DNA of 64,000 bases from Rippkaea orientalis PCC 8801. GTDB taxonomy: Bacteria; Cyanobacteriota; Cyanobacteriia; Cyanobacteriales; Microcystaceae. Below are positions 43,681-55,000 of this stretch, one piece after another. Below the pieces are notes generated by a model. It saw only the letters and a program-made list of their open reading frames with translations. It did no database searches and was not told where the DNA came from. The DNA lies in assembly GCF_000021805.1 (NCBI RefSeq), contig NC_011726.1, forward strand, positions 4,372,097 through 4,436,096, read 5' to 3'. How positions within the stretch are numbered: position 1 is the stretch's first letter; every line of letters begins with the position of its first letter. A program made the translations under genes and the position numbers.

Positions 43681-44433
43681 TTATTCTTCTTCTAAATTAA
43701 CCCCTAATTCTCGTAGTTTTTGTGCTAATTTATCAGCCCTTCGTTTTTGTTTTTCAGCCTGTTTTGTCGCAACTTTAGCCCGTTGTCTTTCTATTTCAGC
43801 TTGTTGTCTTTCTATTTCAGCCCGTTGTCTTTCTATTTCAGCATTTTGTTTTGCTTGTTGAAATTGACAGTCTAACTCAATAGAACTTAAAAATTTTTGT
43901 CCATCAGGATGATAGATTTCTAACCCTGATGAATCAACAACAAAACGAATCCCTAAACGGGGACTTATCCAATCATTTATCGGCAGAATTTCCGTTAAAT
44001 TTTCTCTCTCCCTTTGCCATCCTTGTAAGCGAAATCGTTTAGGATTGTAGAGATAATATTCTTCTACCCCATAGGTATCGTAAAACTCTAGTTTACGCTT
44101 CATTTCTGCTTTAGTATTCTTAGGAGAAAGAATCTCAAAAACGACTTGCGGGGGTATATTTTCTTCCCGCCATTGTCGATAGGAACCTCGTCTGCCTTTA
44201 GGACGACCAAAGGCTACCATGACATCGGGGGCAACAGGCGCAACTAAAGTCGATTGAATCGGATACCAGAGTAAATCTCCTGCAATAAAAACGTTAGGAT
44301 CATCAACAAAAAGAATCTCTAAATTTTCTTTGATTTTAACAATCCATTCGTATTGTTCTGTATTATCCGCCATCGGTTGACCGTCGCTATCAGGAAATAA
44401 TAAATCCTCATCAACATCTAAAAAACTAACCAT
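43681..44433 (-). CDS. Uma2-family (DUF820) endonuclease-like protein
   Basis: A 250-residue member of the very common cyanobacterial Uma2 group with a PD-(D/E)xK fold. Conserved elements are VFIAGDLLWYPIQ, PDVMVAFGRPKGRRGSYRQW, PPQVVFEILSPKNT and the tyrosine-rich YDTYGVEEYYLYNP. The C-terminal 50 residues form a coiled coil with near repeats (AEIERQRAEIERQQAEIERQ). The nuclease fold is family knowledge, and these genes' function is not known. It stands alone. Confidence 0.88.
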   Translation of the reverse strand: MVSFLDVDEDLLFPDSDGQPMADNTEQYEWIVKIKENLEILFVDDPNVFIAGDLLWYPIQSTLVAPVAPDVMVAFGRPKGRRGSYRQWREENIPPQVVFEILSPKNTKAEMKRKLEFYDTYGVEEYYLYNPKRFRLQGWQRERENLTEILPINDWISPRLGIRFVVDSSGLEIYHPDGQKFLSSIELDCQFQQAKQNAEIERQRAEIERQQAEIERQRAKVATKQAEKQKRRADKLAQKLRELGVNLEEE

Positions 44434-44502
44434 CGCTTCTTAATTATGCGTTGTTCTCTTCATTATAGCGATAAATCCTCCTTACAAAAACGACTTCTGT
44501 AC

Positions 44503-44523
44503 GGGCTTAATAATATTAAGCCC
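44503..44523. repeat. Palindrome GGGCTTAATA-A-TATTAAGCCC, copy 1
   Basis: Perfect 10-base arms around one A. The same palindrome, with longer arms (16 bases), lies at 50933-50965. Both are followed by CCCTA and a GACTTC-rich stretch. Confidence 0.7.
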
Positions 44524-44684
44524 CTATTGACTTCTAACTTTTGACTTCCTTATTGACTGCCCTAGGATAATTCGCTACGATGATCAATATGCCCCCAGGG
44601 GGGATATAGCCTGAGAAGAAATTTTGCGATAAGTTAAGTTAAGTAAAGAAAATTCTCACAATTGTAGTTTAGGTTAACAAGACG

Positions 44685-45407
44685 TTGATTTCATCCCCTT
44701 CCGATCTGCCAAGCGACTACCTCAGTCCCACCCCCCGAAAAGCCCTAAGCTTGATTTCCCAAGGTTCCCAAGCCTCCCAAGGATGGCTGATGTTTCTCGC
44801 TGCGGGATTTTTAGTCTCGGTTCCTGTGTTCATCGAAGCCCCCTTAGTGCGATTTTGCCCTGAAATTAGCGTTTTGATGACCGTCGTCTGGCTAGGGTTA
44901 GGTTGGATTTTAATGAAACAAGAACGAACCTACCACTGGGGAGACTTACTGTGGGGGTTTAGCTGGAGTTGGTTAGCGGGTTCGATTTATTGGGGGTGGT
45001 GGCGTTGGGAACCCCTGATTCATCTTCCCATCGAATCTATTGGTGTTCCTGTGGCTATTTGGGGGTTATGGCGAGGGTGGTCAAAGGTCGGTCACTTCTT
45101 CTATTTGGGCTCATTATTAGGAACCGTACTCACCGACGGTTATTTTTACCTAACGGGATTAATTCCCCATTGGCGACAAATCATGCAAGTTGACCCCGCC
45201 TTAGCGACCCCCATTTTTCAAGCAGCCTTAACTCAAGTTCAAACAGCCTGGGGAGTGAGTTGGGCAGTGGTTTTAGTCAACATTCTGTTAGGGGTTGGCT
45301 TGTGGGCAATGCAAAAACCCCATCCTCATTGGTGGGCATTAGCGGGCGCAGTATTGAGTACAATCTTAGTGGATAGTCTATTTTGGGTCGCTGCTTCTCT
45401 TGCTTGA
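44685..45407 (+). CDS. DUF3120 membrane protein
   Basis: Cyanobacterial membrane protein family with no known function. The 240 residues hold about six hydrophobic segments, starting with GWLMFLAAGFLVSVPVFIEA, and the Trp-rich segment LLWGFSWSWLAGSIYWGWWR. The start is uncertain: TTG at 44685 opens the longest frame and gives a short polar N-terminus before the first membrane segment, and no ATG is in frame until within that segment. A gap of 251 bases before it holds a palindrome and repeats. Confidence 0.8.
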   Translation: MISSPSDLPSDYLSPTPRKALSLISQGSQASQGWLMFLAAGFLVSVPVFIEAPLVRFCPEISVLMTVVWLGLGWILMKQERTYHWGDLLWGFSWSWLAGSIYWGWWRWEPLIHLPIESIGVPVAIWGLWRGWSKVGHFFYLGSLLGTVLTDGYFYLTGLIPHWRQIMQVDPALATPIFQAALTQVQTAWGVSWAVVLVNILLGVGLWAMQKPHPHWWALAGAVLSTILVDSLFWVAASLA

Positions 45408-45475
45408 GATAACTGTGCTTAGAATAGATATGTAAACTTGAGATCATTAGTCATGTTCTTACTGCTTAGACCCCC

Positions 45476-46465
45476 GTGGAAGATCTAGCCAAAACGCCCC
45501 ATTTACTGTTATTCACCTCAAAAGGTCAACGTTACCTCCCCTTGGTGGGGCGGAACTATTGGGCTATTGGACGCAGCAAAGACAATGATTGTGCCATTCC
45601 CGATCACTGTATTTCTCGCAATCATGCCATTTTACAATGCACCGAAACGGGAGAATTTTTGTTAATTGACTTAGGCAGTCGTAACGGGACCTTTGTTAAC
45701 GATCGCCGTGTAGGTATTCCCGTTACCCTCCGCAATGGGGATAATATTACCTTTGGCAAAACCCAAGTTGAATTTTATTGTCCTGCGGTGGATCAGTTGA
45801 AAGAGTCTGAAGAAGAGTCTCTAGAGAGGGATACCATCGTCTTACACGAACGCCGCTTAATGTCGGTGATGGTGGTAGATATGAGGAATTTTACGACCTT
45901 AGCGAGACAATTGGATGACGATCTCCTATCGTGTTTAATTGGTAACTGGTTTCGGGAGGCAGGGGAGATTATTCGTCAGTCAGGCAGTTGGGTTGATAAA
46001 TATATTGGCGATGCGGTGATGGCTATTTGGTTTCATGGCGAAAAAGAGGTTAAAAAAGGAGATTTACTACGGATTTTTCAGGCGGTCAACGAGATCAATT
46101 TGATGACAAAAAAATTGAGTCAAGAACACCCCGTTCCCTTTGAATTATCCATTGGCGCGGGGATTAATACGGGATATGCCATGGTTGGCAATACAGGAAG
46201 TGGGGATCATCCCGATTATACTGCGATCGGCGATACCGTTAACGCCGCTTTTCGCTTGGAATCAGCTACCAAAGAATTAAAATTAGATATTGCCGTTGGT
46301 GAACCAACTTATCGCTATTTTGCTGATTTACAACCCGTTCAAAATCTCTTTAAAGAATACACTGTTATCCTCAAAGGCTATGAACAACCGACCTTAACCT
46401 ATGGCGTAACTTTTGAAGCCTTAGAGAAATTTTTAACTACCGCTAAAAATACCACTTCTGAGTGA
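45476..46465 (+). CDS. FHA-domain class III adenylate/guanylate cyclase
   Basis: A 329-residue signalling enzyme. The N-terminal FHA domain (about 10-100) has WAIGRSKDNDCAI, ISRNHA and DLGSRNGTFVNDRRV, which bind phospho-threonine peptides. The C-terminal cyclase domain (about 128-300) has the metal-binding Asp in MVVDMRNFTTL and the second one in DKYIGDAVMAIW, then GAGINTGYAMVGNTGS. The phospho-dependent FHA domain suggests activation by kinase signalling, for example by Hanks-type kinases such as that at 7290 (inference). cAMP or cGMP as product is not settled by sequence. A GTG start at 45476 is used. Confidence 0.9.
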   Translation: MEDLAKTPHLLLFTSKGQRYLPLVGRNYWAIGRSKDNDCAIPDHCISRNHAILQCTETGEFLLIDLGSRNGTFVNDRRVGIPVTLRNGDNITFGKTQVEFYCPAVDQLKESEEESLERDTIVLHERRLMSVMVVDMRNFTTLARQLDDDLLSCLIGNWFREAGEIIRQSGSWVDKYIGDAVMAIWFHGEKEVKKGDLLRIFQAVNEINLMTKKLSQEHPVPFELSIGAGINTGYAMVGNTGSGDHPDYTAIGDTVNAAFRLESATKELKLDIAVGEPTYRYFADLQPVQNLFKEYTVILKGYEQPTLTYGVTFEALEKFLTTAKNTTSE

Positions 46466-46569
46466 TCAATAAGTCATCAATTATTGATGTTGATAGACTT
46501 TATTAAAAATTGTAAAATAGCCTAAAAACACATTAGAATAATGCTAACCTAATCTATCGGGAGGTTTCT

Positions 46570-47613
46570 GTGGCTTTATACGCGGACTTACATCGCCATC
46601 TCGGAGGATCAGTGGTTCCTCGCATTCTTTGGCGATATTTCAAACGCCATGACGTAGAAATGGCGCAGCGATTTCCTGAATATCCAGGGTTTGAGGAATT
46701 TTATACCCGTGAACGCAAAACCCTAGATGAATACCTGGAATTGCATACCCTGGTTGAAAAAGTTCAAACCGAAGACACCCTCCCCTATTTTATCTATCGC
46801 TTGATTCGGGGGGCTTATATTTTTGAGAATTTGGCCTATCTAGAATTACGCTATACTCCCTATTTACGCACCCCTGACCATCTCAGTCAATCAGAACGCA
46901 TTGATCTTATGGCTAACATTGTCGCAATTGTGGGACAAGCAACGCAAGTTAAGGAATATCCCATTATTATTAGCCAAATTCTCTGTATGCACTCCCGTTT
47001 ACCCTATGAAGTCAATAAAGCGATCGTTGATTTAGCAGCGAGTATGGGGCATTATGTGTGTGCGATCGATGTTGCAGGGGGAGACTCCCATTATGCGGAA
47101 CGATTAGAGGAGTTTGTGGGATTATATCAATATGCCCATTCTTTGGGGTTAAAAACCACCGGACACCTCTATGAAACCCCCCACGGTTGCTATCGAGAAT
47201 TACTCCCCTATTTACAGCGTATTGGACACGGGATTCAAATTCCTTTAAAGTATCCGGAGTTATTACCGGAAATCGCGCGATTAAATCAGTGTTTAGAGGT
47301 CTGTCCAACTACCTATTTAAAAACAGGAACCCTCCAAAATTTACACCAACTCAAAGTGGTTTTTGATCGCTGTTTTGAGGCCGGGGTAGATATTGCTATT
47401 TGCACGGATAATGCGGGGTTACATAACGTCCGTTTACCCTTTGAATACGAAAATTTATTGACCCAAGATGTCATTGATTTTGATCAATTACAAGCTTGTC
47501 AAGATGCTGCTTTTCGTCATGCGTTTGCTTGGCCGTATCAGCAACCTCCTGCTTCTTTACTCACGGGATTACTTCAAGATAATTCAACTACCCTAAGTCA
47601 AGTAATGGCATAG
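46570..47613 (+). CDS. Adenosine deaminase family protein
   Basis: Metal-dependent deaminase of 347 residues. The zinc motif is in ADLHRHLGGSVVP (His8 and His10), a further His/Glu pair in TTGHLYETP and the late Asp in ICTDNAGLH. Members deaminate adenosine or related purines to inosine-type products; whether adenosine itself is the substrate is unclear for this cyanobacterial branch. The GTG start has GGGAGG seven bases upstream. It is followed by a hairpin that nadC probably shared before the island came in. Confidence 0.85.
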   Translation: MALYADLHRHLGGSVVPRILWRYFKRHDVEMAQRFPEYPGFEEFYTRERKTLDEYLELHTLVEKVQTEDTLPYFIYRLIRGAYIFENLAYLELRYTPYLRTPDHLSQSERIDLMANIVAIVGQATQVKEYPIIISQILCMHSRLPYEVNKAIVDLAASMGHYVCAIDVAGGDSHYAERLEEFVGLYQYAHSLGLKTTGHLYETPHGCYRELLPYLQRIGHGIQIPLKYPELLPEIARLNQCLEVCPTTYLKTGTLQNLHQLKVVFDRCFEAGVDIAICTDNAGLHNVRLPFEYENLLTQDVIDFDQLQACQDAAFRHAFAWPYQQPPASLLTGLLQDNSTTLSQVMA

Positions 47614-47623
47614 TTGTAAACTA

Positions 47624-47650
47624 CCCTAACTAACCTTTGTATAGTTAGGG
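47624..47650. terminator. Hairpin terminator after the deaminase gene
   Basis: CCCTAACTA/TAGTTAGGG is a perfect 9-bp stem with a nine-base loop, followed by TTTCTAAAG. On the minus strand it faces the end of the old nadC remnant, so it was probably a bidirectional terminator. Confidence 0.7.
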
Positions 47651-47662
47651 TTTCTAAAGTTT

Positions 47663-47817
47663 TTAGGAGGGCATTAAATTATTAAAAATCTGCATACTTA
47701 AGTCTAACCAAGGCGATCGCGTAATCGGTGCACTACTCGAAATATAATCGACTCCTGTCTCTGCAACTGCGCGAATAGTCGCTAAGGTAATATTACCCGA
47801 TGCTTCAATTTTTACCC
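47663..47817 (-). pseudogene. Displaced 3' end of nadC
   Basis: On the minus strand the bases translate to IEASGNITLATIRAVAETGV, DYISSSAPITRSPWLDLSM, then QIFNNLMPS and TAA. This is the C-terminal part of quinolinate phosphoribosyltransferase. 125 bases (47693-47817) match the 3' end of the intact nadC (50006-50130) at 121 positions; the four differences are all synonymous. The remnant has no start of its own and is cut off from the rest of the gene by the inserted methylase and nuclease genes. Confidence 0.92.
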
Positions 47818-47882
47818 TACCCTATTCTTGTATTGCTTAAATCATCTGTGTCTCGAAAATCAAATTATAACGATGCTTGAAG

Positions 47883-48842
47883 ATGGCTAAAAACCCAAGA
47901 AAGTTAACTAATTCACCGTTTCGTTATCCAGGAGGAAAATTTTATGCGCGTAAGCTAATTTTATCCTGTTTGCCAACACATAACAAATATTGTGAACCTT
48001 TTGCTGGAGGAGCATCAATCTTTTTTGCTAAAGAAAATGTTAAACAAACTATTCTTAATGATAAAGATGAATTATTAATGAATTGTTATCAACAAATTAG
48101 AGATAATGTTGAGCAAATTATTCAAAGCTTAGAAGGTATTCCAGCGACTAAAGAGTTACACAGTTATTATAAAAATAAATTTAATCCTTCTAATGATTTA
48201 GAACGTGCTGTCAGATGGTATTACCTCAATAGAACATCATATTCTGGGATTATGAAACAGGAAAACTGTTATTGGGGTTATGGTGATAAATATTCAATGC
48301 GTCCAGAAAATTGGCCTCATCATTTAAGAACTACCTCAGAAAGATTACAAGGAGTTGAATTGCTTTGTTTAGACTTTGAAAAAGTTATTAATGAACTTTC
48401 TAATGGATTCTTTTTATTTATTGATCCTCCTTATTTTAATGCAGATCAAGATAAATTTTATACTTATTCTTTTAGTCTAGAAGATCATGAAAGACTATCT
48501 TGGTTATTGAGAAAAAATCAAGATAAATATAAATTTTTGATTACTTATGATAATACTCCTGAAATCAGAAAAATGTACCAATGGTGTACTTCAATTCAGG
48601 ATAATGAGTGGAACTATACTATTAGTCGAACAGACGATCAAAGAAATAAGCGTAAGTTACAAGATGGTTATCAAAGTAGTCGCTATAAAGGTAAAGAAGT
48701 TTTCATCACTAATTATGATTTATCCTCCGTTTCAGGAATAACCTGTTTAAAAATTGATGAATCATTAACTGAAAAAGAACTCCATACTCATGTTAATGAA
48801 ATTAATAAACAATTAGATTTTTTTGAACAACTAAAACTATAA
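47883..48842 (+). CDS. DNA adenine methyltransferase (D12 class, Dam-like)
   Basis: N6-adenine DNA methyltransferase of 319 residues with the class alpha motif order: FRYPGGKFYARK (motif X), CEPFAGGASIFF (SAM-binding motif I), a target-recognition region (about 90-160) and FLFIDPPYFNADQ (catalytic DPPY, motif IV). It should protect the host from the neighbouring nuclease. The target sequence cannot be read off with certainty; relatives include GATC-type and other enzymes. The ATG at 47883 is chosen over a TTG at 47877. The gene is AT-rich relative to the chromosome around. Confidence 0.9.
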   Translation: MAKNPRKLTNSPFRYPGGKFYARKLILSCLPTHNKYCEPFAGGASIFFAKENVKQTILNDKDELLMNCYQQIRDNVEQIIQSLEGIPATKELHSYYKNKFNPSNDLERAVRWYYLNRTSYSGIMKQENCYWGYGDKYSMRPENWPHHLRTTSERLQGVELLCLDFEKVINELSNGFFLFIDPPYFNADQDKFYTYSFSLEDHERLSWLLRKNQDKYKFLITYDNTPEIRKMYQWCTSIQDNEWNYTISRTDDQRNKRKLQDGYQSSRYKGKEVFITNYDLSSVSGITCLKIDESLTEKELHTHVNEINKQLDFFEQLKL

Positions 48843-48845
48843 ATT

Positions 48846-49847
48846 TTAGATCAATAAAGTTTCTAATTGATCTAAGTATATCCAAGGAGCAAGGGGTTTT
48901 CCAGTATCAATATTAAAGTAAATAAATGGATAGTTAGGAATAAAACCGCAATTAGGATTTTTACACTTTAAACGAGTGCAGTTGACATTATATAAAATTC
49001 TATTGGGTTGATTAGATACTAATTCTCTACTTCTAGCAATTAACATTGTTTGAAAAGCTTGTTGTTGATTAGTTATTCCTAGCTTACTTAAAAATAATTC
49101 AGCTTCTTGATCCGGTTTCCATTGATATAAACCATCATCAGTTGTTTCATAGAAAACATTAGCAATAGAAGTTACTACAAAATCAAAATCTTCTTGTCGA
49201 TACTGATCGCTATGAATTGACCATAACTCATGAGATAATCCTGTACTATTAGCTCTTTGCTGTGCTGCTTCTTGTCCTAAAGTTCTTGATCTCATACACT
49301 TGACTTTGAGATAAGGATTTGCTTTAGGATTAGTTCTAAAACTTCCTTTAGCAGCCAATTTACATTCCACTGTATATGTTTGATTACTTTCTTTATTGAT
49401 AATCATAACATCAACATCTTTAACTCCTGTTTGAGCATTCAGACGAGGATTAGTAATTTCATATTTTTGGGGTGATAAAATTTGTGAAATATATTTTTTA
49501 ACAGTAAATTCAAATGATTTCCCCCGAATCATCGGAATAACTTTAGGATCATTGAGAACTTCAGCAAGGTATTCAAATTCTAAATCGTAAGATTGACAAA
49601 ATTGACTAAGTTGATTGATTTTATTTGTGTAATCGAATAATTGAAAAATTTCAATTATATCTATATCTAATGCTTGAAAAATTGAGTTGATACAAGTAAG
49701 AGACGGATTTCTTTTCCCTCTTTCAAGAAGACTAATATAAGTTCTATCTAGGTCAGCAAGTTCCGCAAGATACTCTTGGGATAATCCTTTCCTAGTCCGA
49801 ATTTTGTGTAAAAAATTGCCTAATTCAATTAAAATATTTGCGTCCAT
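48846..49847 (-). CDS. XRE-domain/PD-(D/E)xK restriction endonuclease fusion
   Basis: A 333-residue protein. Residues 1-70 are a helix-turn-helix of the XRE type (TRKGLSQEYLAELADLDRTY then ISLLERGKRNPSL). The rest is a nuclease domain with GVKDVDVMII (Asp144/Asp146) and YTVECKLAAKG (Glu161, Lys163), the D...ExK active site. The last part has Cys pairs (NCTRLKCKNPNCGF). The pairing with the methylase, three bases away and convergent, supports a restriction enzyme. A controller-like DNA-binding domain fused to the enzyme suggests self-limitation of expression; this is inference. Confidence 0.78.
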   Translation of the reverse strand: MDANILIELGNFLHKIRTRKGLSQEYLAELADLDRTYISLLERGKRNPSLTCINSIFQALDIDIIEIFQLFDYTNKINQLSQFCQSYDLEFEYLAEVLNDPKVIPMIRGKSFEFTVKKYISQILSPQKYEITNPRLNAQTGVKDVDVMIINKESNQTYTVECKLAAKGSFRTNPKANPYLKVKCMRSRTLGQEAAQQRANSTGLSHELWSIHSDQYRQEDFDFVVTSIANVFYETTDDGLYQWKPDQEAELFLSKLGITNQQQAFQTMLIARSRELVSNQPNRILYNVNCTRLKCKNPNCGFIPNYPFIYFNIDTGKPLAPWIYLDQLETLLI

Positions 49848-49866
49848 ACTCTATATATAAACGCCT

Positions 49867-49900
49867 ATGTGACTATCGGTCTACTGACTGACAGTCACAT
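49867..49900. repeat. 34-bp palindromic repeat, copy 2, upstream of the endonuclease gene
   Basis: ATGTGACTATCGGTC to GACAGTCACAT; the ends ATGTGACT/AGTCACAT are perfectly inverted. It is the reverse-complement partner of 31023-31056 (29 of 34 identical). It lies 20 bases upstream of the endonuclease start, where an operator or promoter would be expected. Confidence 0.6.
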
Positions 49901-49987
49901 TTTATGAATTTCACCCCTAACAAGAATATAGATCAAGATTACCTAAAATCAACAATTACAACTAAAATACCTATATTTCTGAGTTAA

Positions 49988-50836
49988 TCACTTTGATGAG
50001 ATTCTCATACTTAAGTCTAACCAAGGCGATCGCGTAATGGGTGCACTACTCGAAATATAGTCCACTCCTGTCTCTGCAACTGCCCGAATAGTCGCTAAGG
50101 TAATATTACCCGATGCTTCAATTTTTACCCGAGGATTACTATTACGAATTATTGCGACAGCTTGCTTGATTAAACCCAATTCCATATTATCTAACATGAT
50201 AATATCAGCCCCATAATTTAGGGCTTCTTCTACTTCTAATAAATTAGTTGTTTCAACTTCAATAGTTAAAGGATAGGGCATTCTTTGACGAATTTGAGTA
50301 ATAGCTGTTTGAATACTTCCGTCCGCTTGGATATGATTATCTTTAATCATTACTGCGTCATCTAACCCTAACCGATGATTGATTGCACCCCCCATTTGCG
50401 TCGCATATTTCTCTAAAATTCTTAACCCTGGAGTGGTTTTTCGGGTATCCACTAATTGGGTCGGTAAATCGGCAATCATTTCGGTATATTGTCGTGTTAG
50501 AGTGGCAATACCACTAAGTCTCATGGCTAAATTTAACGCGACTCTTTCCCCCATCAATAAAACATCCAACGGGGCTTTAATATTAATAATAACTTGTCCC
50601 GATTGTACCCGATCGCCTTCTTGGACTAACGGGGTAAATTCACTGCGATCGCTTAATAATTGAAACACCCTTCCCGCAATAGGAAGTCCTGCAATAATTC
50701 CGCTTTCTTTAGCGATCCAAGTTGCTTCTCCTGTGTTGTGCAACGATAACCCTTGAGTCGTGCGATCGCCTCTTCCAATATCTTCTCGTAACCATAACTT
50801 TAACCAGGGATCTAGAACAATGGGAGGGGGTAGCAT
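49988..50836 (-). CDS. nadC: Nicotinate-nucleotide pyrophosphorylase (quinolinate phosphoribosyltransferase)
   Basis: Converts quinolinate and PRPP to nicotinate mononucleotide in NAD synthesis. The 282-residue protein has LREDIGRGDRTTQGL at the start, LVDTRKTTPGLRILEKYA (PRPP/active-site loop), GAINHRLGLDDAVMIKDNHI and VEVETTNL, and the end is DYISSSAPITRSPWLDLSM followed by RISSK. The ATG at 50836 is chosen over a longer frame that runs through a C-rich repeat up to 50917. The 3' part seems to have been supplied by the inserted island; the displaced old 3' end lies at 47663. The protein is intact. Confidence 0.95.
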   Translation of the reverse strand: MLPPPIVLDPWLKLWLREDIGRGDRTTQGLSLHNTGEATWIAKESGIIAGLPIAGRVFQLLSDRSEFTPLVQEGDRVQSGQVIINIKAPLDVLLMGERVALNLAMRLSGIATLTRQYTEMIADLPTQLVDTRKTTPGLRILEKYATQMGGAINHRLGLDDAVMIKDNHIQADGSIQTAITQIRQRMPYPLTIEVETTNLLEVEEALNYGADIIMLDNMELGLIKQAVAIIRNSNPRVKIEASGNITLATIRAVAETGVDYISSSAPITRSPWLDLSMRISSK

Positions 50837-50839
50837 CTC

Positions 50840-50882
50840 GGTGAGGGGGTGAGGGGAAGAGAGGGTGAGGGGGTGAGGGGAA
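50840..50882. repeat. Direct repeat GGTGAGGGGGTGAGGGGAA in the nadC leader
   Basis: Two identical 19-base units (50840-50858 and 50864-50882) with a 24-base period, just upstream of the nadC start. The mRNA strand is C-rich. Similar CCCCCTCACCCCCT strings occur inside the tamB-like gene. Confidence 0.75.
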
Positions 50883-50932
50883 AAATAAGTTAAGAGAATT
50901 TTAGGAGAAGTTCCCAACTATAAATTTAACTT

Positions 50933-50965
50933 CAGTAGGGGCTTAATAATATTAAGCCCCTACTG
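50933..50965. repeat. Palindrome with 16-base arms, copy 2
   Basis: CAGTAGGGGCTTAATA-A-TATTAAGCCCCTACTG is fully palindromic. It lies between the peroxiredoxin stop and the nadC leader and may end the peroxiredoxin transcript. Copy 1 is at 44503. Confidence 0.75.
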
Positions 50966-51001
50966 ACTTGGTGACTTCATTCAACCCCTAACCCCTAACG
51001 T

Positions 51002-51637
51002 TTACTTATTGGGTTGGGGAGTCATGCGAAGATAGGGTTTAATTTCGGTAACTCCTTTGGGGAATTTCTGTTTTGCTTCTTCGGTGGAAATAGAAGGAAC
51101 AACGACACAGTCATCGCCATCTTTCCAGTTAACGGGGGTAGCTACTTGATGATAGTCTGTCAATTGCAATGAATCAATTACACGCAGAATTTCATCAAAA
51201 TTCCGTCCAGTACTCGCAGGATAGGTAATAGTCAAGCGTAGTTTCTTGTTAGGATCAATAATAAAGACCGAACGCACCGTTAGGTTATTCAATGAATTAG
51301 GATGGATCATGCCGTATAAATCCGCTACTTTTTTATCGGCATCGGCTAAAATGGGATAGTTAACGGTGGTATTTTGGGTTTCGTTAATATCGTTAATCCA
51401 ACCGCGATGAGACTCTACACTGTCCACACTCAAGGCTAAAACCTTAACATTACGCTTGTCAAATTCTGACTTGAGACTAGCGACTGCCCCTAATTCTGTG
51501 GTACAAACGGGAGTATAGTCCGCAGGATGGGAAAATAAAACAACCCAACTATCTCCTGCCCATTCGTGAAATGAAATGGTTCCTTGACTGGATTCTTGAG
51601 TAAAATCAGGAACAACATCACCTAATTGTAGAGCCAT
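51002..51637 (-). CDS. 1-Cys peroxiredoxin (Prx6 type)
   Basis: Thiol peroxidase of 211 residues. The peroxidatic Cys45 is in HPADYTPVCTTELGAV, the Prx6 form PVCTTE. The Prx6-type C-terminal dimer domain is present (VATPVNWKDGDDCVVVPS, with TEEAKQKFP). It reduces H2O2 and organic peroxides using a cellular thiol or other donor. The start MALQLGDVVPDFTQESSQG is typical. No regulator lies next to it. Confidence 0.93.
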   Translation of the reverse strand: MALQLGDVVPDFTQESSQGTISFHEWAGDSWVVLFSHPADYTPVCTTELGAVASLKSEFDKRNVKVLALSVDSVESHRGWINDINETQNTTVNYPILADADKKVADLYGMIHPNSLNNLTVRSVFIIDPNKKLRLTITYPASTGRNFDEILRVIDSLQLTDYHQVATPVNWKDGDDCVVVPSISTEEAKQKFPKGVTEIKPYLRMTPQPNK

Positions 51638-52036
51638 AATGGTAACTTCCTATACAGTTCAATAAGAGCAATTTTCATTATTGCCATAGAACCTGCATTT
51701 TTTGTTAATCTTTTAGATATTTATAACAATTGCAGGGGGTATATTAACCTATCCTTGGTTTAAAATAGACCGTTTATGTCCAAATTTTAAGATTAATTGT
51801 AGCGGTTAAGGCTCTTTGACTTGTGCCTGATTTTTTGTAAACTATATAAACTTTTGTAAATTCTCTAGATGTCTTTCAAACTCTCACTTTCGACTCCCAT
51901 CTTCCAACTCCTAACTTTCGACTCTCATTTCCTGAAAAAAGCCTTCACGAAACTTTTAACGGTTAATGTGTCAAAATGTAAGGGCAAAAGTCGCTTACCT
52001 ATTTAGTCTAGACTATGGTGGTGTGAGAAAAGCCCT
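51638..52036. other. Intergenic region between divergent peroxiredoxin and tamB-like genes
   Basis: 399 bases. The middle to right part (51880-51950) is a degenerate repeat of CTTTCGACTC/CCAACTCCTAA kind, related to the GACTTC repeats elsewhere. Both flanking genes must have promoters here, but I cannot single out boxes with confidence. No gene is seen. Confidence 0.45.
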
Positions 52037-55000
52037 ATGATCACAAAACCCTCCCATTCAGACGCTAAACCGGACGCTAATTTACCGTGTCCCTTCTCTT
52101 CTGAACCTAAGATAACCTTTTCACCTCGTTCTTTGTTGCTTTGGGGAGGAGGAATACTGTTGTTAGGACTTGGAACCAGTTTAGTCGGGGGATGGTTTTT
52201 CCTACAGCGACAGTTAACTCCCTTAGTAGAAGATCAACTCAGTAATTTTCTCAACCGTCCCGTTAAGTTGGGATCAGTCCAGTATTTTTCTTTGAATAGA
52301 GTCCGTTTTGGTTCGAGTGAAATTCTGACGACCGCAACCGATCCCGCTCAAGTGTCGATGGTGGGTTTAGAGGTAGACTACGATCCCATTAAACTGATAC
52401 TAACACAAAAATTAGAGATTGGAATTACTGCCATTGACCCTAATGTTTACTTGAAGCAAGGAAAACAAGGGAATTGGATACTAACAGAATTTGATGCAGT
52501 CAAACCCAATAACCCAATAAAATTAAAATCTCTGCGCTTTAGAAATGCCCAAGGACTGTTATTAGCTAATTCGGCAACCGGACAAATTCCTGAACCTGTG
52601 AAATTTGAAAAATTGTCGGGTCAAACGGATTTTATTAATAACCGTGAGAACATTAAATTTAAGGTTGATGGACAGTTAGTAAGCGAAGGTAAATTCAAGG
52701 TTTCTGGAGTGGCTAACCCTAAAACGCAGGAAACTAAATTGTTAGTGCAAGGGAACCGTTTAGGAGTGACAGAAGTTGATCATTTAATTGACCTTCCCTT
52801 AGACTTTCAAGCAGGAAAACTGGATGCTAATTTAGAAGTTACTTTGAGATCGCAACAACTTCCTTTACTCCAGGGAGTCGCTAATTTAGAGCAAGTTACT
52901 GCAAAAATTGACAACTTTCCCCATGTTTTACAAACCCAAGGGACACTCCGTTTTCAAGGGACAGCAATTTACTTTGATAAGGTAGGGACTCGCTTTGGTG
53001 CAATAGACGGGATAACTGAAGGCAAACTGGATCTTAAAAAAGGTTACGCTTTAACCACAAAAACCGAACCAACTGCCATTACTCAACTCTTGAAAACCTT
53101 TAAGCAAAAACCTCCTTCTATTCCACTGTTGGGGACTGTAAAAGGGGTTTTACAAATTAGAGGAAAGCTTAATAAACCTCGTTTTTCCGTTGGACTGTCT
53201 ACTACCCAAATTGCTAAAATTGATAAATTAGATTTTCAGCAAATTAATGCTCAGCTAGAGTTAAATGACGCTAATTTGTTGGTGAAAGAATTTGAAGCGG
53301 TTCCTACCCTTGGGGGAAAAATAACGGGAAAAGGGAAAATTAATTTAGCTGCTAATCAATCTACAAAAATGCCTCAATTTGTTGTTGAGATTCAAGGAGA
53401 AAATTTAGCAACAAACCCCTACTCTAACCTATACCAAACCTCCTTACCCTTAGACTTAGGAAAAGTTTCGGGTAATGTGACGCTATCGGGAATGATTAAT
53501 CAACCTCAAACCCTTCAAGCAAACGGAAACGCTTACTTTAGTTTAGATCAAGGAGTTATTAAAGCAGCTCATCTGACTTATAATCAAGGATACTGGCAAG
53601 GAAAAATAAAAGCATCTGGAGTTGATTTAGCGAGTTTAAATATAGCTATTCCTGAAGAGATCAAGACGGGAAAACTACAAGGAATATTTGATGTTATAGG
53701 AAAATTTAATCACAATTCTGAACCGAATATCAATGCAACTGGAACCGCTAACATTACTCTAGATCAGGGAAAAATAACAGCTAATAATTTAGAACTCATT
53801 AACAAAACTTGGAAAACAGATTTAGCTATTGATGGAGTTAAATTAAAACAATTAGTAACGGAAAAACACCCTATTTTTGAAGGAAATCTTAATGCCAATC
53901 TTGCGGTGACTGGAAAATTAGGATTAGGATTAAATAATGTCCAAGCAAAAGGTCAAGCAAGGTTAGATTTAACCCAAGGAGAAATCAAGGCTAATAACTT
54001 ACAGTTAGCTAATGGCAATTGGTCAAGTAAACTAATTACGAGAAATGTATCTCTTAATCAATTAGTTTTAGATACTCCTAAAAAATTACAAGGTCAATTA
54101 AATAGTTATTTGGCAGTTTCAGGTAATATTAATAAGCCTTTAAGAGAAATTACAGGACAAGGAAACGCCCAACTAACTTTAGCATCAGGAACAATTAATG
54201 CTCAAACCATTGGGGTTTCTCAAGGTAAATTTACAACAATACTTGCTTCTGAAAACATTAATTTAACACGATTTTCTCCCGACTTAACAGGACAATTAAA
54301 GGGAACTATTGAAGTTGCAGGACTATTAGATAAAATTACCCCTGATACCATCACAGCGAAAGGAAAATTAAACTTTAGTCAAGGAATAGGAGGATTTAAA
54401 CAGCCTCTAACTACGGTTTTCGGTTGGAATGGCGAAAAATTGACCATTAATCAAGCAAAAGCAAGCGGACTGTCTGTTAAAGGATGGACAGAAATTAATT
54501 GGGCAAAATTACATCAAACTCAAGATAAGCTCGCAGCAATTGAGGAATTTGACCTAGATGTTGCTATCTCTGGATTAGACTTAAAATATCTACCCCTTCC
54601 TCTTGCTAATAATCTAGCAGACTTGAACTATGGAGGAAAAGTTGATTTTTCAGGGGCGATCACTGGAACCCCTAAAAAGCCAATCATTGACGGTAAGTTA
54701 GCATTAATTAATTTAAACCTCGATCAGTTTAAATTTGAATCGTTTTTAGCTGGAAATCTGCAAATTAAACCCGAAAAAGGACTAAAAATTGCCTTAGCAG
54801 GACGCAATGATCAAATCAATCTTGAACTTGATCGCAAGTCTCAACCCGTGTCCTTTGATCTCAAACAAGCACAAATGCAGGTCAAAGGAACCCGTGAAGC
54901 CGAAAAATTTACCCTAGAAGTTGGACAAATTCCCATCAATTTACTACAAAATTATATTAACAAGGGAACAGGGAACGGGGAACAAGGAACAGTTAATCCT

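Follow-up and report, generated by a model that had tools for sequence, protein, structure and literature searches.

Within the window (the whole stretch of 64,000 nucleotides that was analysed, part of a 4,679,413-bp contig in a genome of four contigs), a restriction–modification (R-M) cassette lies between two copies of the 3' end of nadC (Table 1). From left to right, the deaminase-like gene (+) is followed by a gap, a nadC remnant (−), 65 bp, the methylase gene (+), 3 bp, the endonuclease fusion gene (−), the operator, whole nadC (−) and the peroxiredoxin gene (−).

Table 1 Features of the nadC locus, in window coordinates
Feature	Position	Strand	Basis
Adenosine deaminase-like gene to the left of the remnant, convergent with nadC	46570–47613	+	Pfam, comparison with relatives
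Inverted repeat in the deaminase–remnant gap; may be a terminator serving both sides	47624–47650		Sequence folding
Remnant: second nadC 3' end (repeat copy 47693–47817) with its own tail QIFNNLMPS and stop	47663–47817	−	Repeat comparison, own-genome search
Predicted D12-class adenine-N6 DNA methyltransferase (Dam/DpnM-like, type II methylase)	47883–48842	+	Family and structure-database matches
Predicted fusion of R-M control protein (HTH, residues ~3–70) and type II endonuclease (residues ~79–333)	48846–49847	−	Family matches, alignment
Predicted control-protein operator (C-box like)	49866–49901		Conserved in five aligned loci
Whole nadC, quinolinate phosphoribosyltransferase (contains repeat copy 50006–50130)	49988–50836	−	Open reading frame and family
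1-Cys peroxiredoxin, upstream neighbour of nadC	51002–51637	−	Pfam scan

The two nadC ends are direct repeats identical at 121 of 125 bases, far beyond what chance would produce, and a search of the genome with positions 47600–47880 returned only the segment itself and the other nadC copy (E 3e-54). All four differences (47726/50039, 47747/50060, 47750/50063 and 47771/50084) fall at third codon positions of nadC and are synonymous, and three of them are C–G exchanges. Whole nadC is an open frame with the C-terminus DLSMRISSK, its tail RISSK and stop codon occupying 49988–50005. The reading frame of the remnant would terminate as DLSMQIFNNLMPS, and an in-frame stop lies directly upstream of its duplicated stretch. 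The first-pass annotation had described 125 bp of the nadC end on both sides of a methylase–nuclease pair in one orientation, four synonymous third-position differences and a nadC that stays whole, and each of these observations was reproduced.

Among solved structures, the best sequence matches of the methylase were an adenine methyltransferase (7m6b) and DpnM (2dpm). The fusion gene runs tail to tail with the methylase gene; its HTH part resembles C.BclI and C.AhdI, and its endonuclease part matches family PDLC03516 (E 9e-67), with D144, D146, E161 and K163 (a D...E-x-K arrangement) invariant in all 10 aligned relatives. The presence of both a methylase and an endonuclease family places the pair among type II R-M systems. 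Its GC content is 29.7%, compared with a window mean of 39%. Judging from these families, restriction with a delay through the control protein is the predicted function: an established cassette would work like other restriction systems, the methylase would be made first, the fusion protein would switch on its own promoter via the predicted operator, which we take to be a C-box, and unmethylated foreign DNA would be cut.

On the left flank, the C-terminus of the deaminase (..TTLSQVMA) differs from all nine relatives compared, and the left junction may therefore have undergone a rearrangement of its own. The departure from relatives covers positions 47585–47613 of the window, suggesting a breakpoint within the last codons. 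An 86-nt stretch at the inverted repeat folds no better than many shuffled sequences (27 and 17 of 200 were as good). Adjacency of the deaminase gene and nadC was sought in six congeners and found in none, the two genes lying apart in all six; the peroxiredoxin gene adjoins nadC in one of them (G003) as well. According to Pfam, neither the cassette genes nor six neighbouring ORFs of the window (43684–54500, the last ORF in part) encode a recombinase domain, and the first-pass statement that no integrase is present holds for those ORFs.

Comparison with six congeneric nadC genes (73–82% protein identity to the window nadC) gave identities to the whole copy and the remnant of 102/99, 109/108, 105/106, 103/103, 102/103 and 103/103 of 125 bases. 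The largest preference of any congener for one copy was thus 3 of 125, and neither copy was favoured at the four differing sites. All six congeners read DLSM-R-(I/V), which resembles the MRI of the whole copy more than the MQI of the remnant; no congener ends in RISSK or QIFNNLMPS. These results run against the first-pass expectation that the remnant would be closer to the vertically inherited end. The whole copy continues with AGA-ATC as the congeners do, which a random cassette tail would match about once in 1000 (an estimate from base frequencies). Past those two codons neither tail resembles the congeners, with 100 of 300 shuffles as good for the whole copy and 25 of 300 for the remnant. 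A broader tail similarity favouring the whole copy was apparent at first and comes down to these two codons.

In the repeated stretch of nadC, 27% of random changes would be silent (transitions weighted twofold). Four silent changes out of four would then have a probability of about 0.034 if one copy were live and one dead, and of 0.006 if all changes had occurred in a dead copy. Simple decay of an identical duplicate at nadC is disfavoured. Given the value of 0.034, the four silent differences are modest evidence for two alleles, and the same silent pattern would arise from a live gene in a recombining population; the first-pass argument from these sites, that one copy had diverged as coding DNA in another genome, is weak.

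The tkt site in genus g3

The same cassette family was found behind tkt (transketolase, named from sequence) in genus g3 of the same family, presumably Microcystis. The layout and orientation are those at nadC, with whole tkt on the control/endonuclease side and a remnant on the methylase side. This remnant repeats 64 bp of the tkt 3' end, stop codon included, and in G281 it lies about 70 bp from where the methylase gene starts. The tkt end was matched in 11 of 12 genomes of the genus (all except G101) and a second copy in eight of the 12, with the second copy and tkt on different contigs in G298 and G254. Compared within each of seven genomes, the copies showed 0, 0, 1, 1, 1, 2 and 3 differences in 63 bases; five of these eight differences are silent, even between copies this similar.

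Two terminator-like tails distinguish the copies. Whole tkt is followed by tail B in seven of the 11 genomes (G281, G196, G215, G254, G239, G233 and G259) and by tail A in four (G298, G206, G118 and G318), and seven of the eight remnants carry A and one (G206) carries B. In G118, which had no match to the methylase (E ≤ 1e-40) or the endonuclease (E ≤ 1e-3), whole tkt is joined to A. Tail A is 85–95% alike between G118 and the cassette-bearing genomes, and further out only 79 bp align with G281. The state of G118 is either ancestral or the product of a precise loss by recombination between the repeats; under either reading, A is part of the flank that lies past the remnant. Because the cassette-free genome carries A as seven of the eight remnants do, the methylase-side copy at tkt is, by this comparison of flanks, the old end, and it follows that whole tkt has a new end where B adjoins the cassette. 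By eye, tail B contains a hairpin and then a T run, oriented as a terminator of tkt would be; it was not found beside tkt in other genera among 49 genomes of the family.

By analogy with tkt, the methylase-side copy at nadC would be the old end as well. The first-pass view, in which the island replaced the nadC 3' terminus and the former end stayed in place, is supported to that extent, the direction in the window itself being given by analogy only, since the genomes compared at nadC are congeners.

Other arrangements occur at the same site. In G206, G298 and G318 a shortened endonuclease gene and about 1.4 kb of other DNA precede tkt; in G206 each tkt copy has the terminator usual for the other, and next to the remnant lie repetitive DNA and a gene that other genomes have elsewhere. 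To judge from these altered loci and the neighbours of the G206 remnant, the tkt site has been rearranged more than once. The tkt end at L193 (G318), L191 (G206) and L192 (G298) is a repeated rearrangement site, with other genes present and terminators swapped or duplicated. The repeat in G318 measures 152 bp. Furthermore, G215 has kept the operator side alone, and G239 has methylase and endonuclease with a single tkt copy, its methylase match being without the first 70 bases.

Cassettes and flanking repeats in other genomes

Searching 388 genomes of the order yielded methylase relatives (E ≤ 1e-40) in 36, counting the window genome, and another screen, of 386 genomes from the phylum, added no cassette genome to those from the methylase and endonuclease searches. 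G021, G300 and six genomes of genus g3 encode the control protein and the endonuclease in separate frames, and G040, G321 and G094 have the fused form. Among six other genomes of the window genus, one (G003, a sister species) has the cassette, as a broken copy in which the methylase has an internal gap and the endonuclease is without residues 66–252. It adjoins a gene read from its sequence as glutamine amidotransferase, and nadC of G003 is whole, on another contig, with no methylase or endonuclease beside it. A lone control-protein operator lies at a contig end of G003 behind a pentapeptide-repeat-like gene (L165, G003:C102:17500-17535) and may mark the opposite side of a cassette copy. In G300, a gene of the phage-integrase family adjoins the cassette (L129:5963-7159). 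In G196, the cassette site has a second, partial endonuclease copy ~4 kb away from the complete cassette (L132, 4180–4660 when the locus is read flipped), hinting at earlier cassette copies.

Phage records gave no cassette match, and none was confirmed in IMG/VR. Plasmid searches matched 70 records. Among the 20 listed, three 9.8-kb Acinetobacter plasmids (NZ_CP127896.1, NZ_CP127910.1 and NZ_CP135161.1) match the endonuclease domain at ~45% identity and the others mostly match the HTH part, with a DNA adenine methylase annotated under the match in one of these records.

A scan of 43 sources (568,813 bp) for direct repeats (≥40 bp, ≥90% identity, 1.2–4 kb apart) gave seven, all of them around the cassette: one at nadC and six, each in a different genome, at tkt. 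The sources, a subset of the fetched loci, comprised the window, cassette regions, and cassette-free tkt and congeneric nadC regions; because most were chosen around cassettes, the survey is a neighbourhood control and not a whole-genome one. Repeat lengths vary (64–65, 125 and 152 bp). A flanking repeat of this length and identity was present at five of 30 cassette loci (13 + 17), representing two events because the five are the window and four genomes of one genus. No such repeat was found at the other 25, the right flank in this test being short at L127 (22 bp), L170 (431 bp), L166 (889 bp, with tkt on another contig) and L128 (2301 bp). Repeats below the threshold were left uncounted: 37 bp at 84% in G021, 32 bp at 91% in G132 (by eye no gene end), 25 bp in G117, 23 bp in G323, and 60 bp at 75% with a 65-bp inverted repeat in G343.

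The first-pass annotation had proposed that the same island ends be sought in other genomes. Alignment of five loci (the window, G281, G003, G021 and G300; the G003 operator comes from a different contig than its broken cassette) showed conservation to stop at the outer edge of the operator on one side and to begin near the gene on the methylase side, with nothing conserved further out on either. No terminal repeats or IS copies, such as would bound a composite transposon, were found, and the junction stretches have no further copy in their own genome. Together with the negative recombinase scan of the window neighbours, this fits either a long target duplication or homologous entry of DNA bearing a gene end of its own.

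Origin of the two gene ends

We give about an even chance to the reading that a type II R-M cassette with no integrase of its own entered nadC at its 3' end, most likely by a homologous route. The incoming DNA would carry a nadC 3' end next to the cassette and would enter either as linear DNA, through one homologous and one illegitimate junction, or as a circle by a single crossover. The last 125 bp would then stand on both sides. Next to the methylase would be the original gene end, still joined to its original downstream DNA, and the endonuclease side would supply a new tail, which is why nadC would stay whole. From the comparison with congeners, we read the two nadC ends as having separate origins, the new one derived from a nadC that the cassette DNA brought in; the reverse is possible. 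Also in favour are the broken cassette of G003 beside another gene, with a nadC free of it, the five loci that share nothing beyond the cassette, the congener-like AGA-ATC of the whole copy and the low GC content of the cassette. The repeat, the cassette and the whole gene are observed, as is the same architecture at tkt in another genus, there with a cassette-free allele; for the window, we infer the direction, the donor gene end and the absence of a dedicated enzyme. Several observations speak against the homologous route, namely the near identity of the tkt copies (0–3 differences in 63 bases, as pure target duplication would give), the congeners, which side with neither copy at the four differing sites, the remnant tail MQI, which is less congener-like than MRI, the lack of resemblance to congeners in either tail past those two codons, the swapped terminators of G206 and the 25 of 30 loci without a flanking repeat. 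Loss of the cassette in G118 by repeat recombination, instead of an ancestral state, could also weigh against it.

The near identity of the tkt copies and the variable repeat lengths would fit a long target duplication as in Helicobacter R-M genes, and such duplications are known for R-M genes from passages of PMC3031569 and PMC1643837. A non-homologous cassette would enter at a staggered or copied break, the target (125 bp or 64 bp) would be doubled, and later changes plus gene exchange would produce the four silent differences. This account is possible if somewhat unlikely, as the congeneric R-I codons in the tail of whole nadC are unexpected of random cassette DNA, the silent differences have a probability of about 0.034, and the new tkt tail has, by eye, a hairpin and T run, as if it came from a gene end. 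A different account makes whole nadC native and the methylase-side copy a newcomer, a filler fragment captured from a native or foreign nadC end during a rearrangement that joined deaminase, cassette and nadC. It agrees with MRI in the whole copy and MR(I/V) in all six congeners, with the altered deaminase end and the separation of deaminase and nadC in those genomes, and with the link of R-M genes to inversions and translocations mentioned in PMC3031569. We regard it as quite unlikely, since at tkt the remnant, and not the whole gene, keeps the flank of the cassette-free genome, and the end of a neighbouring gene would have to be captured twice, at nadC and at tkt.

A site-specific integrative element whose integrase was lost or acts in trans is very improbable. 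Insertion at the 3' end with preservation of the gene is typical of such elements, and the integrase-family gene beside the G300 cassette would suit one, but none of the six window neighbours scanned by Pfam encodes a recombinase, and the two targets are unrelated and the cassettes have no common ends. Returning to the homologous route, we suggest, tentatively and as a rather unlikely generalization, that small R-M cassettes spread without a recombinase, each taking along the 3' end of the housekeeping gene that it lies behind. This gene end would be a portable, homology-based attachment site that leaves the host gene whole, and ordinary recombination would allow the cassette to loop out and re-enter. 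The swapped terminators of G206 look like the junction of a looped-out circle, and the adjacent repetitive DNA also allows local rearrangement.

Relation to known systems

A limited literature search found no report of these nadC or tkt cases. One cassette family is seen in two gene-sparing insertions behind different housekeeping genes, both in the same orientation, suggesting that insertions which leave their target gene intact can recur. R-M genes flanked by long target duplications are known, and they move without obvious mobility enzymes; the nadC and tkt cases, one with a cassette-free allele, offer a testable cyanobacterial system in which the ends of genes may be where such cassettes land.

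Some integrative elements bring with them the 3' end of the gene they target, so that the old end lies on the far side and the target stays whole. The window would likewise have an old end on the far side and has a whole gene, but no integrase was found next to its cassette, and the insertions share no common core and have different targets. For the fusion gene, the nearest parallel is CR.NsoJS138I, in which a control protein is likewise fused to an endonuclease with a separate methylase; according to PMC3850674, both activities have been demonstrated. That enzyme belongs to another family, being a PvuII relative, whereas the window endonuclease matches PDLC03516. Homology-facilitated illegitimate recombination, as outlined in PMC3240628, combines a homologous with an illegitimate junction and would give the layout of the window, where we infer it. 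According to passages of PMC3031569 and PMC1643837 that cite Nobusato 2000, R-M systems insert with long, variable target duplications; likewise, R-M genes here lie between long, variable direct repeats of target DNA. Compared with the insertions described in those citing passages, the present cases differ in that a gene 3' end is duplicated on two occasions, and each time the gene remains whole and has a new tail or terminator.
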